A DNA stretch of 31,527 nucleotides from positions 66,151-97,677 of the forward strand of contig NW_003113962.1 in NCBI RefSeq assembly GCF_000003605.2, given 5' to 3'. A program made the position numbers and the translations under genes. The notes under the pieces were generated by a model that was not told the origin of the DNA, made no database searches, and saw only the letters and a list, made by a program, of their open reading frames with translations. How positions within the stretch are numbered: position 1 is the first letter of the stretch; each line of letters starts with the position of its first letter. Positions 544-15,254 of the stretch are shown piece after piece. Source of the DNA: Saccoglossus kowalevskii. Its lineage: Eukaryota > Hemichordata > Enteropneusta > Harrimaniidae.

Positions 544-3319
544 CTGTATGAGACAAATTATTGTGATTAGTTTTCATTCAAATCTACAAAAATAATATAG
601 ACCATAAAAACTCAAAAGCTAAATGCATAATTTTATAGCGAACATGTTCTAACCTGGTTTCCAGCCATTTTGAGTACACCCAACATTGGCCTAATGAATT
701 GCTATGCAACTACGTAGTCGACTGATTGGCTGTCTCCATAACTTCAGTACATTGTTATTGGGGGAATACACATGCACAGACTGACTTGTATGCAAGACCC
801 AACCACTACACTCCAGACCATTGATTCACTAGTCTATTATATATAAAGTCTCACGATCATAGGTGCCATCTAGTCTAACGTTTCAAAAATGAGTTAAAAC
901 TGTATTCTTTTAGTTAACGCTAGTATAATACGTTATGCATAATATTGCAGGAAAATTTCTCAACAGAAGTACCATTTATAAACCCATAGGGAAGTGTACA
1001 GGGAAGTTTCTGTTTATTCTTTGTTGTTGGAAATATTGTTCATAACAATTTGTTGAGATACATGGAAATAAAATATACAAATAATGCAGTATATTTATAT
1101 TAGCACAGTACTTGACAGAAAGAAACCATACAGTACATGTATTAATATGTACATTTACCCATTTTATTAACAAGCCGGGTTTATTTACACTGCTATCCCA
1201 TAATATTACTACTGCATGTCAATCAACTTTTACAAAGTGTTATGAGAGTATCAGGTTACAAACTCAATTTGTACAGTTGAGTTATTACTGACAGCATCTG
1301 TCCTCATTGATTGAAACAAACTACCATATTTACACTATATTTCACATTTCACTAATATCTTCAGCCAGGTCATGGGATAATCTCTAGTGTCTGTGTTATT
1401 GGTACCATCATTTCAATTGCAATTTCTTTACCTTGTTCTAATTGGTTGATTGCATGTTTTTTATAACGCTATTAAATAGACAATATACCACAGTTTCCTG
1501 TGTTTAGGAGGAGGTGAATAACATACAGTAGGGTAAAATCCTCCTGTCAACCAAAATCGGCGAAATTGTTATTTTGCGTTCGGAACATTGCATGCAATGA
1601 AGAGCATTGTAACCCTTGGGAATTTTGAGTTCCAAAAAAATGCATGAAAAAAAAATCTTTTGGAATTACGCAAACAACGCCAAAAAAAAATGATTGCTGT
1701 TTGCAGTGGTTCACTCATGGATTCAGAAGTTTTGCCAATCAAAACATAATTGGGTGCACAACAATAATCGGTGTTCATATTTTTTTGAAATTATGTCAAT
1801 TTTACATATATCAAATTAGAATTGTTAAATTTTCTAAATAGTTGCAATAAAGATCGGCTTTATCTTATCTTTTATCTCTATCAACATCAATATGACTGAT
1901 AATGCACACTATAACAGTAAATGGCACCAGACAAGTGGGCACCTAGTGGATTTTGATGAAAGTGAATGCAAAGCGTTAATCTCTCTACAAACATGAGTAA
2001 ATAAAAATATTTGGTATGTGCCCAGATCTTGTATCTTTGTATACACAACTATTGTTCTATTGTAAACATAGATTGGCCAGCAGGGGAACGGTCAACAGTC
2101 AACACCAGCAACTTTCAAAATGGGACAATTGTTTAGTCACAACTCAAGCAGCTGTTAGTCAATTCACAAGTGAGTTTGCCAACTTGCATCAACCAAAAGT
2201 CACATGGGCTGTTGAATTTAATGTACAGTTGTATTGTAATGTCCGCAGCAGAAACAAATTCTTTTGATTAATATATATACTGTCTTACCTGTGTAACCTT
2301 CTTGGCATTCACACTGATACATACTAGACGACAGTTGAACACAAAAACCATAATTACAGACACCGTCACTACATTGTCCAACTAAACTAGAACACTCTGG
2401 TCCTGAAAAGAAAATATAATATGCAAGAAAAAACTATTATTTGTGACAATGAAAAATGTAAATATATAACTGATATATCAAGAAAATCTTAAGGATAAGG
2501 CTGATTCAAAATGAAATTTTTATAACATTTTCATTTTATTAATAGGTACTTACCGGCAAATCCTGGTGGACACTGGCAGGCAAATAAATTCCCAGCATGC
2601 CCTTGGATCATATCAATACATGTGCTGTTATAGTTGCAAGGGTTACCATGGCAACCATCAATCTCCTCACAATAGTCTCCGCTATATGGTGGATTGCAAT
2701 CACATTGAAACATACCGTCTTGCCGTCTGCTAAGGCAAACACCTTGGCCACTGCAAGTTTGTAAATTAGTATTCGCTTCACAGTTTCTTGGCTTCACTGT
2801 TACATTGAGTCGAAGACCAAAATCGCATCGGGAGAAAGCACCATCCGGAAGCTGTGCAAAGAAATTCACTCCAGGTTGCAGTAATGAAACATCAACAAAA
2901 ACAGTTTCAATCGTTGCATATGGAACAACTCTCAAAGCATCCGGATACTGGTCACCTGGACAATCAATGAAATCCTGGTCAGAGACTCTGGCTGCATCTA
3001 TATGTGGTAAAGGTATACCAGCAGGCACTAAGATTAGGAAGTCACCTTCCTGCATCTCTACAGGGCATAACTGAGGCAGATAAACAATACGAGAATTTTC
3101 AATTCCATGACATTCTTTGTAAGTGTCGCAGACTTGATCCAAAGACCAGGAAACCGTAATGTTAACAGGATTGTCTCTCCATATTGTCACATCACTATGG
3201 TTACAAGAAATGCTATTCACTTGATAAATGTGGAATAACATTAAACTCATCCACAAACAAATATCCATAGTTACTGAAGAGGCAAGCCATGGCATCAGCT
3301 TTATTCCACAAGCCGACAT
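88..3319 (-). CDS. DNER-like: DNER-like multi-EGF receptor, 5' part (partial gene)
   Basis: Exons in transcript order are 3319-2554, 2402-2289 and 543-88. All have GT..AG borders and all junctions are phase 1, so the reading frame stays open for about 445 residues before running off the left edge. A hydrophobic signal peptide lies at about residues 18-36. It is followed by a Cys-poor module (about 39-178) and then seven EGF repeats, the seventh unfinished at the last donor. The order of N-terminal beta-rich module, then CSGQGVC-type EGF, then a second EGF with an inserted G-H-A-G-N-L-F stretch matches my memory of the middle of vertebrate DNER, a neuronal transmembrane Notch-pathway ligand. 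Family membership is moderately sure; orthology is inferred. The transmembrane segment and cytoplasmic tail would lie outside the window. Any large EGF protein with a similar head is the alternative. Confidence 0.75.
544..2288 (-). other. Intron 2 of the DNER-like gene
   Basis: About 1.75 kb of A+T-rich sequence between the EGF exons. The short ORFs here (976-1173, 1569-1841, 2016-2267) have no splice context or recognisable motif. I see no RNA gene or element that I can support. Confidence 0.7.
2289..2402 (-). CDS. DNER-like: DNER-like exon 2: third EGF repeat
   Basis: This 114-bp phase-1/phase-1 exon has acceptor TTTTCAG|GA and donor ACAG|GTAAG on the minus strand. It supplies the last Cys of EGF2 (G-P-E-C) and almost all of EGF3, with Cys pattern QCSDGVCNYGFC...YQCECQEGYTG. 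A symmetrical phase-1 EGF exon is the classic unit of EGF-domain shuffling. It is too short for an ORF filter of 60 codons. Confidence 0.8.
2554..3319 (-). CDS. DNER-like: DNER-like exon 1: signal peptide, N-terminal module, EGF 1-2
   Basis: The first ATG is at 3319-3317, but Met18 starts a better signal peptide (MDICLWMSLMLF), so either Met may be used. Residues 39-178 form a module with Cys at 39, 64, 70, 85, 120 and 165. Possible N-glycosylation sites are N40, N53 and N172. EGF1 spans about C180-C217. EGF2 begins at C223, has NST at 231, and is completed by the next exon. The exon ends at a consensus donor (reverse strand GCCG|GTAAGT, phase 1). The plus-strand ORF at 2805-3074 is only its antisense shadow. 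Confidence 0.78.
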
Positions 3320-4654
3320 TCTGAGCTATTTAGGAAGGCAGTATGGAAGTATGTCAATGTTAATTTCACATCGCTGACAGAATTGAATGCAGCAATCACA
3401 TGACCATTTGTTTACTCTAATCACAATAGTATCTATTGTAGAATGTACTTTTGTTTTTTGAAAACACAACAGAAACAATTTATTTTCATTCAATAATTCT
3501 CATTGTCATATCTAATAATTGTCATCCTTTGAAAAATAATTTCAGAACATCTGTTTAAAATTAATAAAAAGATCACAGCTTAAAAATCAAAATCACACAC
3601 TAAGTCTGACCTGAAAATCTAATTTGCATCAAAATGAACAGTGTTCAATTTTAGTGTAATTTTGTTGGCACTTTTATATAATTTGCAAAATTTATAATGA
3701 ATCTAACTGTACTTTATTTCAAAATTTCTTACATATATTTACATATAACATATTTCAAAAATATACTCAATTTCTACAATTAGAAAAAAAAATCAGAAAA
3801 TAATAGGTACAACATTAAAATAAGATTTTATATAAATGATATTCTACTATGAATTTATTTATGCTCACTTATGAAATGGCAAAATGACAATAGTAAACTT
3901 GCGTTGGCAAATCAGTATAGAAAAAATCAACACAAAAATAATTGCCTCAAAATGACATTGCATTGCAGAATAAACCAAAAGCATCTCAGAAAGCAGAAAA
4001 ATACAAAAATTGCATAAATTATTTCATTTATATTTAAATTACATTAACACCTAAGGATATATTAATAACATATTTATATTTAAATCATAATGATATAGCT
4101 CTCATACAAGTGTGGGTAGGAACATTTGGTTAATATAGTATAGTGAAAAATTGTATTTTATTATCTCTCGCTATTAATCAAATTTTGAATAATAGGTTTT
4201 GTCACTTCAATGTGCAGTTATGTTATAATTTGTAATATACGAGGACTATTATTCCTCGTAACATATGGTAACTGTGATTTGCATATGTCAACATGTGATT
4301 AACCGACTATTAATCTGTTTTTTCTGTCACGTAAGTGTCATTCTGCAGTGTCGATGGAAATTAATTCTTTTCAAACAGAGAAGTGATCATTGTTTTTCTG
4401 AAAAAAAAAAGTTTATAAAAAAAATTATTGCAAAAATACATAGGAACTTACAGCTATGCAAGAAAGTATGGAAATAAATAAGTAAATGTGACATTGCTCA
4501 ATTTGTGTAGGATACCCAATGGTTTGAACACATACTGGTTATTGACAAAACAATGTGTCAATTTTTGGACTACTATAGTTGAAAAATGATAATCCTAGGA
4601 AAGAAATTGGTAGTCTACTAGAAATACAAGTATATCTGTGAAAGAAAAGGTTAG

Positions 4655-7852: not shown

Positions 7853-8061
7853 ATGTCGTCTTTGGGTGTGCTGTGTTTCAACCATTGCAGTCCCGTCAAT
7901 ATATTTTGTTTTGAAATGCCCGATAACTGTCCACTATGTGGTACTTTACTTGACGTATCACCCTGCCAGTCACCGCCTTTCAGAATACCTAGTCCCTTTG
8001 CTAATGGTATAACCAAACCGTATAGTGTTGTTGTTAAACCTACAGAGGGAACTTTTCTTCA
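7853..8061 (+). CDS. MKRN2OS: MKRN2OS-like exon 1 (Cys-rich N-terminus)
   Basis: Residues 1-69 plus two bases of codon 70. It contains C8, H11-C12, C19, C26-x2-C29 and C38. The donor is TTCA|GTAAGT. The overlapping minus-strand ORF 7786-8016 is antisense shadow. Confidence 0.82.
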
Positions 8062-10286
8062 GTAAGTACATGTATAAGTGTTTTTAATTTAAGTGAAAAC
8101 TGACAGTCTTTGGAATTACACCTTAAGAATCTTTTATTTGTTTTTTGTTATCCTCAGAAGGATGGTCATAATATTAAAATACCGATAGTTAAATGAAACA
8201 CCATCTTCAAAATGAATGGTCATACAGTAACACTCAAAGTAACTTTTAAAAGACTACTACAGTAAAAACTAAATGATAGGATCAGCATACTAGTGGTAGA
8301 GTGTGACTAAAAGTGTATTCCCATGTTTAAATCCGGGATCCATGTGATGTAGATCTTATACAAGTCTGAATTAACATTCCAATTATTTATGTTTTTAGGC
8401 ATTACGAAAGAAATTCTAATCTTCATGTTGGCATTACAAGCTCAAAAGGTAGGTGTATACAGCTGTTTTTATTAATAATAATTGTTAAATCAGCTTGCTG
8501 TCTGTATAATGGGCTAGTTTTTTGCAATTAAAACATTTCCTCCACTGTCCATAGTTGCTTGTTATGTTCAGTTGTGTATTCTATCACCGTTGAGGGATGG
8601 TGATTCTATGCATCATTAATGATAGTCATAACTATTATGTAAAAAGGTGTGAATTATTTATTTATTTGTGGTGTGCTCTGTTTGTATACTCTTTTTTTAG
8701 AATGACTACCGGATATAACAAAATTAAATTAAGAAAGAAAATATATTATTAGCATGCTTTAAATGAATGGACAGTGATTTTTGGTTTTCTTCTCCAGGTG
8801 CCGTGTATAACTATGACGAGTATGGTCTACATAAAGTTAAAGATAAACATAGTTGGAAACAATCTGTAATTATACCGTTACTAGACAATCGCTATGACGA
8901 TGAATTGATGGAATTATGGGATGAATGTTTACAAAACTATGCAGTTACTAATGAGTGGGACCCAGACAAGTGAGTATAGGATCATTCCTCTATTTCTAGA
9001 TAAAAATGATTATTTGTTGCTAAGCGACATCACTTACATTACTGATAACACTTTTATTGTTAATTGAGAGCTTATTGCAGTCTGCTTTTGCATTGAAGTT
9101 CATCTCTCAGTGGTTATTTGGACCATTATTATGTTACCATGAGATGCCATGAGATGTTTTAGGACTTACTAAGTGGCATTCTGGGCTGTGAGTTACTTTG
9201 GGCATTCTGGAACGTCTGGTTACTTTGGGCATTCTGGGCTTTGGGGTTACTTTGAGCATTAATTGATGGGTCCTGTAACTGGGCATTATGGGCTGTGGGG
9301 TTACTTTGGGCATTTTGGGTTGTGGGCTACCTTCAGGCATTTTGGGTTGTGGGCTACCTTTGGTCATTTTGGGTTGTGGGCTACCTTTGGGCATTTTGGG
9401 TTGTGGGCTACCTTTGGGCATTTTGGGTTGTGGGCTACCTTTGGGCATTTTGGGTTGTGGGCTACCTTTGGGTATTTTGGGTTGTGGGCTACCTTTGGGC
9501 ATTTTGGGTTGTGGGCTACCTTTGGTCATTTTGGGTTGTGGGTTACATTTGGGCATTTTGGGTTGTGGGCTACTTTTGGGCATTTTGGGTTGTGGGCTAC
9601 CTTTGGATATTTTGGGTTGTGGGCTACCTTTGGACATTCTAGGCTGTGGAGTTAGTTGGGACATTGTGAGTTTAAGGTTACTTGGGACATTGTGAGTTAT
9701 AGGTTACGGTAGTTACTTTGGGGAACATTCTGGGTTGTTTGTTACTTTGGGACATTCTTCTTAAAGTGGGTTACATAAACTACTGAAAAAGGTTGATATG
9801 GTGGTTGTGGGTAGGATACACACACCCATGTGCTCAAATCATAGATTGTGACATACCAAGAGATGTCACATGGGATATCATTGATGTTTACCGCAGTTGC
9901 ACTTATATACTTTCATAAAACATTAATCTGATCAAGTCAGGTCACTCATAATATTCCTCTAAGAATTGTTGACCTAATTATTATATTTACAGCCATTGTA
10001 TGGCAGAAAGACAAATAAAATGTACTTATTTTATACAACCTTTAGAGAAAACTCATTATCTTACAGATATAATGAAGAAACTCACAATTGTTACGACTTT
10101 GTGATTGGTTTCCTGAATAACGTACAGTATAATGAGTTGATTGGAAAAGACCCACCGTACCTGACAAGAAAACAGTTCTGTACAGAATTCATCATTCCAC
10201 ACACCACCAAGGCTGCCCGTTACATTGATTTATACAGAAAAGTACAACAGGAAACATTTCTAGTCAAAGAAGAGTCTTATTGTTGA
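7853..10286 (+). CDS. MKRN2OS: MKRN2 opposite-strand protein homologue (DUF4796 family)
   Basis: Four exons (7853-8061, 8399-8448, 8798-8969, 10067-10286) join in phases 2, 1 and 2 to give 216 residues plus TGA. This is close to the roughly 220 aa I recall for the vertebrate protein. An N-terminal Cys-rich segment has NHC (10-12), C19 and CPLCG (26-30), and may bind metal. The core has LHVGIT at 78-83, G-A-V-Y-N-Y at 87-92, W127, then HNCYDF at 150-155 and a helical C-terminus. These landmarks match MKRN2OS as I remember it. The cellular role of the family is unknown to me. The His79...Cys152 arrangement resembles permuted papain-like enzymes (see findings). The start is the first ATG of the exon and fits the family N-terminus. 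Confidence 0.85.
8277..8345 (+). repeat. Degenerate tRNA-like sequence (possible SINE head)
   Basis: Within intron 1, TAGTGGTAGAGTG resembles a pol III A box. About 30 bp later GTTTAAATCC resembles a B box. No cloverleaf with a sound acceptor stem forms, so this is not a functional tRNA. The following word ATGTGATGTAGATCT also occurs at 11140 and, inverted, at 11484. Confidence 0.3.
8399..8448 (+). CDS. MKRN2OS: MKRN2OS-like exon 2 (50 bp, carries His79)
   Basis: Acceptor TGTTTTTAG|G and donor AAAAG|GTAGGT. The frame reads HYERNSNLHVGITSSK and joins its neighbours in phase without any adjustment. It was found from splice sites because it is too short to appear as a long ORF. Confidence 0.8.
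8798..8969 (+). CDS. MKRN2OS: MKRN2OS-like exon 3
   Basis: Acceptor TTCTCCAG|GT and donor ACAA|GTGAGT. It encodes AVYNYDEYG and the segment with VIIPLLD and ELMELWDECL, residues 87-143 plus part of K144. The ATG at 8767 is intronic. Confidence 0.84.
9134..9780. repeat. 27-bp G-rich minisatellite in intron 3 of MKRN2OS-like gene
   Basis: The core, about 9290-9650, holds some thirteen near-identical 27-bp units of the form GGGCTACCTTTGGGCATTTT followed by GGGTTGT. Decayed units flank it on both sides. Most units differ by one or two bases (for example GGTCATT or GGATATT variants). Each has three GGG runs on the plus strand. Because 27 is divisible by three, the array stays open in all three plus frames and in one minus frame (9-residue repeat PQPKMPKGS). 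These ORFs are not treated as genes. Confidence 0.9.
10067..10286 (+). CDS. MKRN2OS: MKRN2OS-like exon 4 (terminal, HNCYDF motif)
   Basis: Acceptor ATCTTACAG|A. Residues 145-216 include H150-N-C152-Y-D-F and end E-E-S-Y-C with TGA at 10284-10286. The upstream in-frame start at 9996 is intronic. Confidence 0.84.
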
Positions 10287-13365: not shown

Positions 13366-13746
13366 CTATCCTTTCCCGACAAACTTTTCCCACTTCCTAA
13401 ATTTTATGTATAACTGATGTATAACATTAATGTTATTAAAACAATACTGATTGGTACATCGATATCTACAACCACTGAAAACAAACAGAAAAAAAAAGTA
13501 GGACGAAAAATGCAATGTCGGTAAAAACAAAATTAAACGACCTTTATGAGTTGGGGGCGCTATAGCTGAAGAGGAACAAATCAGAGCATAACAAACAAGC
13601 GAACAACGCGGAAGCTGAATCATTCAAGATCCAACCCGCCACGGATCCGGTATGTTTTAAATTATTTATGACGAAAATGACGGCGTCTTTCTGAATTTGT
13701 TGTTAGATAAGTTTCTTCATTGTGTGTAATTTGCTGGTGGATCTAA
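13366..13746 (+). promoter_or_regulatory. Probable promoter and non-coding exon 1 of pinocchio-like gene
   Basis: The sequence is GC-richer than its surroundings, with GGGGGCGC near 13553, GCGGAAG near 13608 and CGCCACGGATCCG just before a good donor (CCG|GTATGT at 13650). A 5' UTR exon ending at 13649 would splice to an acceptor at 15254 or 15303. The assembly gap starts 100 bp downstream. The minus ORF 13366-13623 here is judged accidental. Confidence 0.35.
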
Positions 13747-13911
13747 NNNNNNNNNNNNNNNNNNNNNNNNNNNNNNNNNNNNNNNNNNNNNNNNNNNNNN
13801 NNNNNNNNNNNNNNNNNNNNNNNNNNNNNNNNNNNNNNNNNNNNNNNNNNNNNNNNNNNNNNNNNNNNNNNNNNNNNNNNNNNNNNNNNNNNNNNNNNNN
13901 NNNNNNNNNNN
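13747..13911. other. Assembly gap (165 Ns)
   Basis: An unbroken run of N. The apparent ORFs across it are artefacts. Confidence 1.
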
Positions 13912-15254
13912 ACAATGGTTATTAACATAGCACCTGACCCCCTCTGCACTTTTTGTTTTGCATTTTAAGGTAAGAAATCGACATTTGAAACCGACAGGGT
14001 GTCGATTTACTAGGTGCCGTGTTTCACAACTTGTTTATTTATATATGTATAGCAGATGATTTTTTTTTTGAAAATTAGTATTTATTGATTTTCAGCCCCC
14101 AAGTGACTGTGCATTAACAGAAATAAAATGACAATTCAGAAGTGCATAAATTATAACACTAGAAAACTACCCGACCAAACGTGAAGAATTAAGCAGATTT
14201 CGATTAGACAACCATTATGCGAAAATTGAAACGGGTAGACTCGAAAAGAAAAAAAAATAGAAATTTCACCATATGTACTTCTTTAAAACAACAAACAGAT
14301 ATTGGACTACTATCTAAACTCACATGCTGAATATTGAATATGGATGCCATCAGATGCCAAAAATTGAATTAGACCAGAGAAAGCATACAAAATGCAATGA
14401 AATTTAAGATGAGATACATTTTAACACTTCATGCAGACTATTCACTAAACCGAGAAATACATTGTATTAATTTTTCCCAAAATCAAAGTACCAGTTCAAA
14501 CACCTCAATAAAATTCAAAAGTTTATTCATTAGTAAACACAAACAAAAAACTATTGCTAATGAAACTAATTGACTATATTAAAACAGCAATAACAATTCT
14601 ATTTTTTTTCCATTATTTCCATTATTAAACTTTAGTTTAACAAACATAATTTATACCCTTATTACACTTTTTAACTAAATTAGAAATGTATTGTTTCTTT
14701 TCGGTAGTAATAAATAAGTACACATAAAATTTGAACACAAGCTGTACTTACTTTATATATACTTATATATATATACTTTAGTAACATTAATGCTAATCTC
14801 ATAGACCCATGTCCGGTGTGTAGTACTTACTTGATGGTGGCTTACAGCGACCCAACACGCAAAAAGAAACGTTAACAAGAGCAAAATAAAGGTAGGGTAA
14901 GGTCAGTTGCAGCTAGCTGTGGTACTGCAGCTTATTTCTTCAGCTTCAGTGTTGTGAATAAATATAATATTTGCAAGTTAAAGTTTGAAACAAGTTTGAT
15001 CAGAGTTGGTTTGTGCGTTCTTCTGTCATGTAGCATGTGGAAAGACTTCATAATATTTTTGCTGATGATATTTTAAACATATATGACTTCATTAAAAACT
15101 GTAAAAAAAAATGCTTTATTTTATTTGTAACGCATACGTCTATAGTCAAAATACGTTATATTCAGTATATAACAAATTGTTATTTTTGATTTATTTGTGA
15201 TTCTATTGGAAATGACTTAAACCATGCTAAAAAACATTTCTATTTTTCAAACAG
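13912..15254. other. Sequence between gap and first coding exon of pinocchio-like gene
   Basis: A+T-rich, probably intron 1 of the downstream gene. A donor-like AAG|GTAAGA lies at 13970. A TATATA-rich microsatellite-like tract lies near 14754-14777. Nothing else is supportable. Confidence 0.5.

Follow-up and report, generated by a model that had tools for sequence, protein, structure and literature searches.

Does the MKRN2OS gene at this locus encode a cysteine enzyme? The gene lies in a 31,527-nucleotide stretch of the Saccoglossus kowalevskii genome, and that whole stretch is called the window here. An earlier sequence-only reading had picked out in its product a His motif around H79, an Asn at residue 91, and an Asn-Cys motif around C152, and had proposed from these a thiol enzyme of the circularly permuted papain-like type. 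In our analysis H79 and C152 have the appearance of a cysteine-enzyme active site, with the conservation of both residues, a match to the RTE1 family through both motifs, and a published classification (PMC10318531, used here in excerpt) on the side of the proposal and the behavior of N91 against it.

The borders of the coding exons were set from splice signals and from the Pfam match that runs across them, and GT-AG was found at all 3 of the 3 introns (Table 1). The reading had the length of 216 aa right, and its numbering of H79, N91, and C152 agrees with the spliced translation. Its span of 8399-10286 was too short, leaving out the first coding exon. A hydropathy scan of the 216-aa product gave a best 19-residue mean of 1.15 and revealed no long hydrophobic segment or anchor.

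Table 1. Coordinates of the MKRN2OS gene and of other features in the window.
Feature	Position	Strand	Content
MKRN2OS gene	7853-10286	+	four coding exons, 216-aa spliced product
Coding exon 1	7853-8061	+	residues 1-70 (in part); DUF4796_N module with H11, C12, C26, C29; start of main domain
Coding exon 2	8399-8448	+	residues about 70-87; H79 (codon 8424-8426) within L-H-V-G-I-T
Coding exon 3	8798-8969	+	residues about 87-144; N91 (8809-8811), Y92, W106, W127, W140
Coding exon 4	10067-10286	+	Y145, C152 (10089-10091) within Y-N-E-E-T-H-N-C-Y-D-F, stop codon
Minisatellite in intron 3	9280-9649		27-base unit, 13.7 copies, 92% matches
Long open frame (example)	9134-9703	-	189 aa
EGF-like open frames	74-577 and 2531-3325	-	repeated Cys-rich units, judged by eye
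Run of unknown bases	inside 13717-14034		X in translation

Several other features of the window were noted in passing. The minisatellite in intron 3 leaves both strands with long open frames, which are no evidence of a gene. The Cys-rich frames on the opposite strand seem to belong, as exons, to a gene for an extracellular protein that runs divergently from the MKRN2OS gene, and the run of unknown bases is either an assembly gap or a masked stretch.

Both Pfam parts of DUF4796 were matched by the product, with the N part before the C part. DUF4796_N scored 41.9 bits (E=8.5e-11, curated cut-off 27 bits) at residues 5-31, and DUF4796_C scored 175.8 bits (E=6e-52, curated cut-off 28 bits) at residues 42-203, covering profile positions 1-152 of 152. 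The reading had named the product an MKRN2OS homologue, which these matches bear out. We take the gene for an MKRN2OS orthologue with an ordinary four-exon structure, a member of a little-studied family. Beyond these two parts and RTE1, nothing else in Pfam matched the 216-aa product at E up to 10. We also searched the 572-Mb assembly (4830 contigs) with profiles, a search in which the DUF4796_C counts are lower bounds. At least two DUF4796_C matches were found, one in exon 3 (33.5 bits) and one in exon 4 (59.1 bits) of the MKRN2OS gene, and because both are exons of this same gene it looks single-copy. The MKRN1_C profile, which bears on synteny with MKRN2, gave 0 matches in the assembly and 0 in its controls, and we claim no absence from this.

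Relatives of the product were also sought farther afield, with pattern scans that reach close relatives only. These confirmed 0 of 3 pattern stretches in viral contigs and 0 of 28 in prokaryote genomes, and a degenerate pattern, with the same reach, had 0 matches in viral contigs. The product matched nothing in phage records; its best match was at E=0.13 in PHROGs and at a chance-like E=0.28 in a sequence search of the PDB. MKRN2OS-family proteins are described in human and worm; DUF4796 has human MKRN2OS as its type, and its worm members are W10D9.3 and GVD-1 (PMC10320718, likewise used in excerpt), and a member is now seen in the genome of the window too. GVD-1 is a diverged DUF4796 paralogue in C. 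elegans; late-larval cell divisions fail in gvd-1 mutants, and a GVD-1 reporter suggests a nuclear location (PMC10320718). Because GVD-1 is a diverged paralogue, this phenotype bears only loosely on MKRN2OS.

The reading had described both motifs as kept in vertebrate MKRN2OS. We gauged conservation by rescoring single-residue substitutions of the window protein against the Pfam profile of the DUF4796_C domain. Ala was placed at 58 of the 162 domain positions, which were chosen non-randomly to take in every His, Cys, and Trp together with conserved-looking or polar residues. The largest losses were at W140 (7.1 bits), W106 (6.6), C152 (6.5), H79 (6.3), W127 (6.3), and Y145 (6.3), followed by Y92 (6.0), F155 (5.8), Y153 (5.7), and Y196 (5.7). 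C152 thus ranked third and H79 joint fourth among the 58 changes, and every other residue in the top ten is a Trp, Tyr, or Phe. Because profile scores give extra weight to rare residues, the other His and Cys are the fair comparison. When replaced by Ala, the other His changed the score by -0.3 (H71), -1.1 (H98), +0.2 (H104), -2.4 (H150), and -0.1 bits (H189), and the other Cys by -1.8 (C130) and -2.8 bits (C182), so that, of the domain's six His and three Cys, strong conservation is confined to H79 and C152. The next polar residues were N151 (-3.4 bits), E147 (-3.4), and D128 (-3.3). Conservative swaps were poorly tolerated as well (C152S -6.7, C152T -6.7, and H79N -5.8 bits), while G81 of the H-x-G-I stretch is weakly kept (G81A -1.6 bits). 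Along the chain the conserved His precedes the conserved Cys, which stands last, and this is the order of permuted papain-like enzymes.

A motif pair of this kind could also arise by chance in a protein of some other fold, in which H79 and C152 would be structural or would bind metal together with a Cys/His-rich N-terminus. A loose form of the pair (H-x-[GA]-[IVL], a polar residue at +12, and a later N-C-x-x-[FYH]) did occur in 115 of 200,000 composition shuffles of the product, a figure that flatters the pair because the pattern was written after the sequence had been seen; conservation in the Pfam profile is the better test. The N-terminus does have conserved His and Cys of its own. In an Ala scan of the 48-aa N-terminus, starting from 45.6 bits, the losses were 8.9 bits at H11, 7.0 at C26, 6.9 at C12, 5.2 at C29, 5.0 at P23, 4.6 at P27, 2.4 at C8, and 1.0 at C19, with N10A gaining 0.3 bit. 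A small zinc knuckle could retain an H-C...C-P-x-C set of this kind. The chance explanation is nevertheless very improbable, since the similarity to RTE1 requires both motifs and since the survey in PMC10318531 places the family among papain-like proteins.

The RTE1 match is the strongest support in the analysis that the two motifs belong together. RTE1 (PF05608) matched the whole protein at 22.2 bits (E=1.6e-4) and the core residues 73-172 alone at 25.4 bits (E=1.7e-5); none of 9 controls, made up of 8 shuffles and 1 reversal, matched it. Both scores lie below the curated cut-off of 29.4 bits, and we class the protein as a relative, not a member, of RTE1/TMEM222. From 22.2 bits the score fell to 18.9 with H79A, 19.0 with H79N, 20.2 with G81A, 18.8 with G87A, and 20.3 with Y92A, and likewise to 18.0 with W127A, 18.9 with D128A, 17.1 with Y145A, 18.4 with N151A, 18.0 with C152A, 17.3 with F155A, and 19.0 with N161A. 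H79A, G87A, Y145A, N151A, C152A, and F155A each removed 3.3 to 5.1 bits, and none of the substitutions made within 51-68 and 179-198 took the score outside 22.1 to 22.3. The best printed alignment covers 124-167, the Cys half only; the His half contributes to the match as well, because changes at H79, G81, G87, and Y92 lower the score. N91D lifted the score to 24.6, RTE1 preferring Asp at the position where the window protein has Asn, and rises that carry no such meaning were seen with C130A (24.9), E147A (23.6), D93A (23.5), and E148A (23.5). PF05608 gave 0 matches over the assembly and its controls likewise gave 0, so we do not claim that TMEM222 is absent.

Asn at position 91 had been put forward as the third residue of the site, and this part of the proposal is not supported. 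We scored all 20 residues there and converted the scores to frequencies with the help of background values. The column held E at 0.19, N at 0.12, S at 0.11, K at 0.08, D at 0.07, A at 0.06, Q at 0.06, and H at 0.05, with less of the rest, and its information was 0.41 bit, so that it leans polar and is not fixed. The scores for E, N, S, K, D, Q, and H differ among themselves by no more than about 1.2 bits, and N91H costs only 0.4 bit. In the excerpted survey a Cys-His-Ser site is said to be one that might hold for DUF4796 (PMC10318531). Ser84 and Ser85 were tried as the third residue and rejected; they are little conserved (-0.4 and -1.6 bits to Ala) and do not explain the published guess. Ser at column 91 might explain it for some members of the family, though not for the window protein. 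Because the third position varies in DUF4796, the catalytic unit would be a Cys-His pair with an exchangeable polar helper.

This variability also suits a pseudo-enzyme, in which the same fold would have been retained for binding or scaffolding, with H79 and C152 kept for the fold or for a ligand and not for catalysis. Some papain-like families lack a working site (PMC10318531), and the excerpts of PMC10318531 and PMC10320718 report no tested activity for the MKRN2OS family. Even so, the profile does not exchange the Cys for Ser, Thr, or Ala, and no other His or Cys of the domain is strongly conserved beside H79 and C152. We regard a pseudo-enzyme as unlikely, though it is the most serious of the alternatives, and catalysis by the window protein as probable.

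The same assembly supplied LRAT sequences for direct comparison, 7 matches (loci L003-L009) in a profile search. In L003, L004, and L006 a His is followed by G at +8 and a second His at +12; the window protein repeats this spacing with H79, G87, and N91, the last of these being polar and not the second His of LRAT. L005 has no such arrangement, and the matches of L007, L008, and L009 begin after that part. N-C-E-H-F surrounds the Cys in L003, L005, L007, and L008, an N-C-x-x-F stretch like that at the putative nucleophile of the window protein, while other letters surround it in L004 and L006. In L004, L005, L007, and L008 a Tyr stands seven residues before the Cys, as Y145 does before C152. 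L003, L004, L005, and L006 carry a G-D pair, of which there is none in the 216 residues of the window protein. G-D on strand 1 is characteristic of cluster II of the survey, where MKROS is placed all the same (PMC10318531).

From these likenesses one could suppose an LRAT/PLAAT-like acyltransferase or lipid hydrolase in place of an isopeptidase or thioesterase acting on protein. The His spacing and the N-C-x-x-F motif speak for such an enzyme, and the lack of G-D and of a hydrophobic anchor speaks against it. The product had no Pfam match to LRAT (PF04970) at E up to 10. Direct similarity was sought with an own-genome LRAT profile built from six sequences, to which the window protein and 2000 shuffles of it were submitted; the best alignment did set C152 on the LRAT Cys, but the protein ranked 105 of the 1586 scored, which is not significant, and this comparison was rejected as evidence. 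The link to LRAT therefore rests on motif likeness and the published classification, and we consider an LRAT-like activity improbable.

Two of the LRAT loci deserve a remark of their own. The best LRAT-type match, L003 (G000:C3427, match 1501-1860, minus strand), matches PLAAT3 structures at E=8.8e-12 and has an in-frame TAG just before N-N-C-E-H-F, which points to a pseudogene, an exon boundary, or an error in the sequence. In L009 (G000:C253, match 1501-1701) Ser replaces the nucleophile Cys (N-S-E-H-F), and this locus is perhaps an inactive LRAT-type relative.

The whole is best explained, mechanism included, by a permuted papain-like thiol enzyme domain of the RTE1/TMEM222, DESI/PPPDE, and LRAT/PLAAT group, an explanation that we hold to be probably correct; for the papain-like fold taken by itself our confidence is high. 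It is favored by membership of DUF4796, a family grouped with LRAT, DESI, and TMEM222 (PMC10318531), by the third and joint fourth ranks of C152 and H79 among the Ala losses, with neither Ser nor Thr replacing the Cys and Asn not replacing the His, by the RTE1 match through both motifs, which none of the controls gave, and by the G +8 and polar +12 spacing common to three LRAT loci. Against it stand the sub-threshold RTE1 score, the poor rank with the LRAT profile, the lack of an LRAT or PPPDE match in Pfam at E up to 10 and of a PDB match better than E=0.28, the missing G-D pair, and the unconserved N91. Structure prediction covered exon 4 alone (72 aa) and gave a mean pLDDT of 51.9 and a pTM of 0.29; this model was set aside and not used as evidence.

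In the papain-like enzyme that we favor, the strand bearing H79 would come first in the chain and the nucleophile helix bearing C152 last, as a circular permutation. H79 would activate C152, which would attack an amide, isopeptide, or thioester to form a covalent acyl-enzyme, and this could be resolved by water, as in a hydrolase, or by another acceptor, as in a transferase. The polar residue at the third position, here N91, would be an exchangeable helper of the Cys-His pair, and through H11, C12, C26, and C29 the N-terminal module may bind metal and help to hold the substrate. As the protein has no long hydrophobic segment, a soluble substrate is likelier than a membrane-anchored role. Tentatively, one may picture an active enzyme of two parts, a small metal-binding H-C...C-P-x-C reader and a permuted papain-like domain whose Cys-His pair would be invariant and whose third residue would be exchangeable, that would work as a soluble deconjugase or thioesterase and have its catalytic ancestry in common with TMEM222 and with RTE1, a plant protein of ethylene signalling; this fuller picture is possible and clearly less secure than the papain-like reading itself.

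In outline the papain-like reading is right and already known. A 2023 survey lists DUF4796 and human MKROS as papain-like in its cluster II, which also holds DESI1/2, TMEM222, LRAT, and PLAAT, and the novelty of the reading is low for that reason (PMC10318531). Our analysis adds that the third residue varies, that the resemblance to RTE1 can be traced to single residues, and that the N-terminus keeps a possible metal-binding H-C...C-P-x-C set. Should the Cys-His pair prove functional, a role for the MKRN2OS family could be found with point mutants and activity probes, and the argument would extend to TMEM222 and plant RTE1. Separately, an E3-ligase and NF-kappaB role is ascribed to MKROS in the survey (PMC10318531). 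In the excerpt the reference behind this role, number 201, is a study of MKRN2, and we did not adopt the E3-ligase role; the citation is likely a mix-up that could spread into annotation.

Among known systems, the closest is the DUF4796 family itself (human MKRN2OS/MKROS and C. elegans W10D9.3 and GVD-1), with the same two Pfam parts in the right order. H79 and C152 agree with the columns that the family conserves most, and no difference from the family was found in the window protein. In DESI1 the nucleophile is flanked by a stretch closely similar to that of the window protein. At E up to 10 the 216-aa product had no Pfam match to DESI/PPPDE (PF05903, MEROPS C97); the permuted papain-like order and the published cluster are common to DESI/PPPDE and DUF4796 (PMC10318531, in excerpt). 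RTE1 and TMEM222 are called transmembrane proteins (PMC10318531), in contrast to the window protein with its lack of a long hydrophobic segment. The match to the profile of plant RTE1 and human TMEM222 draws on contributions of H79, G81, G87, Y92, W127, D128, Y145, N151, C152, F155, and N161, which take in both the His and the Cys of the putative active site.
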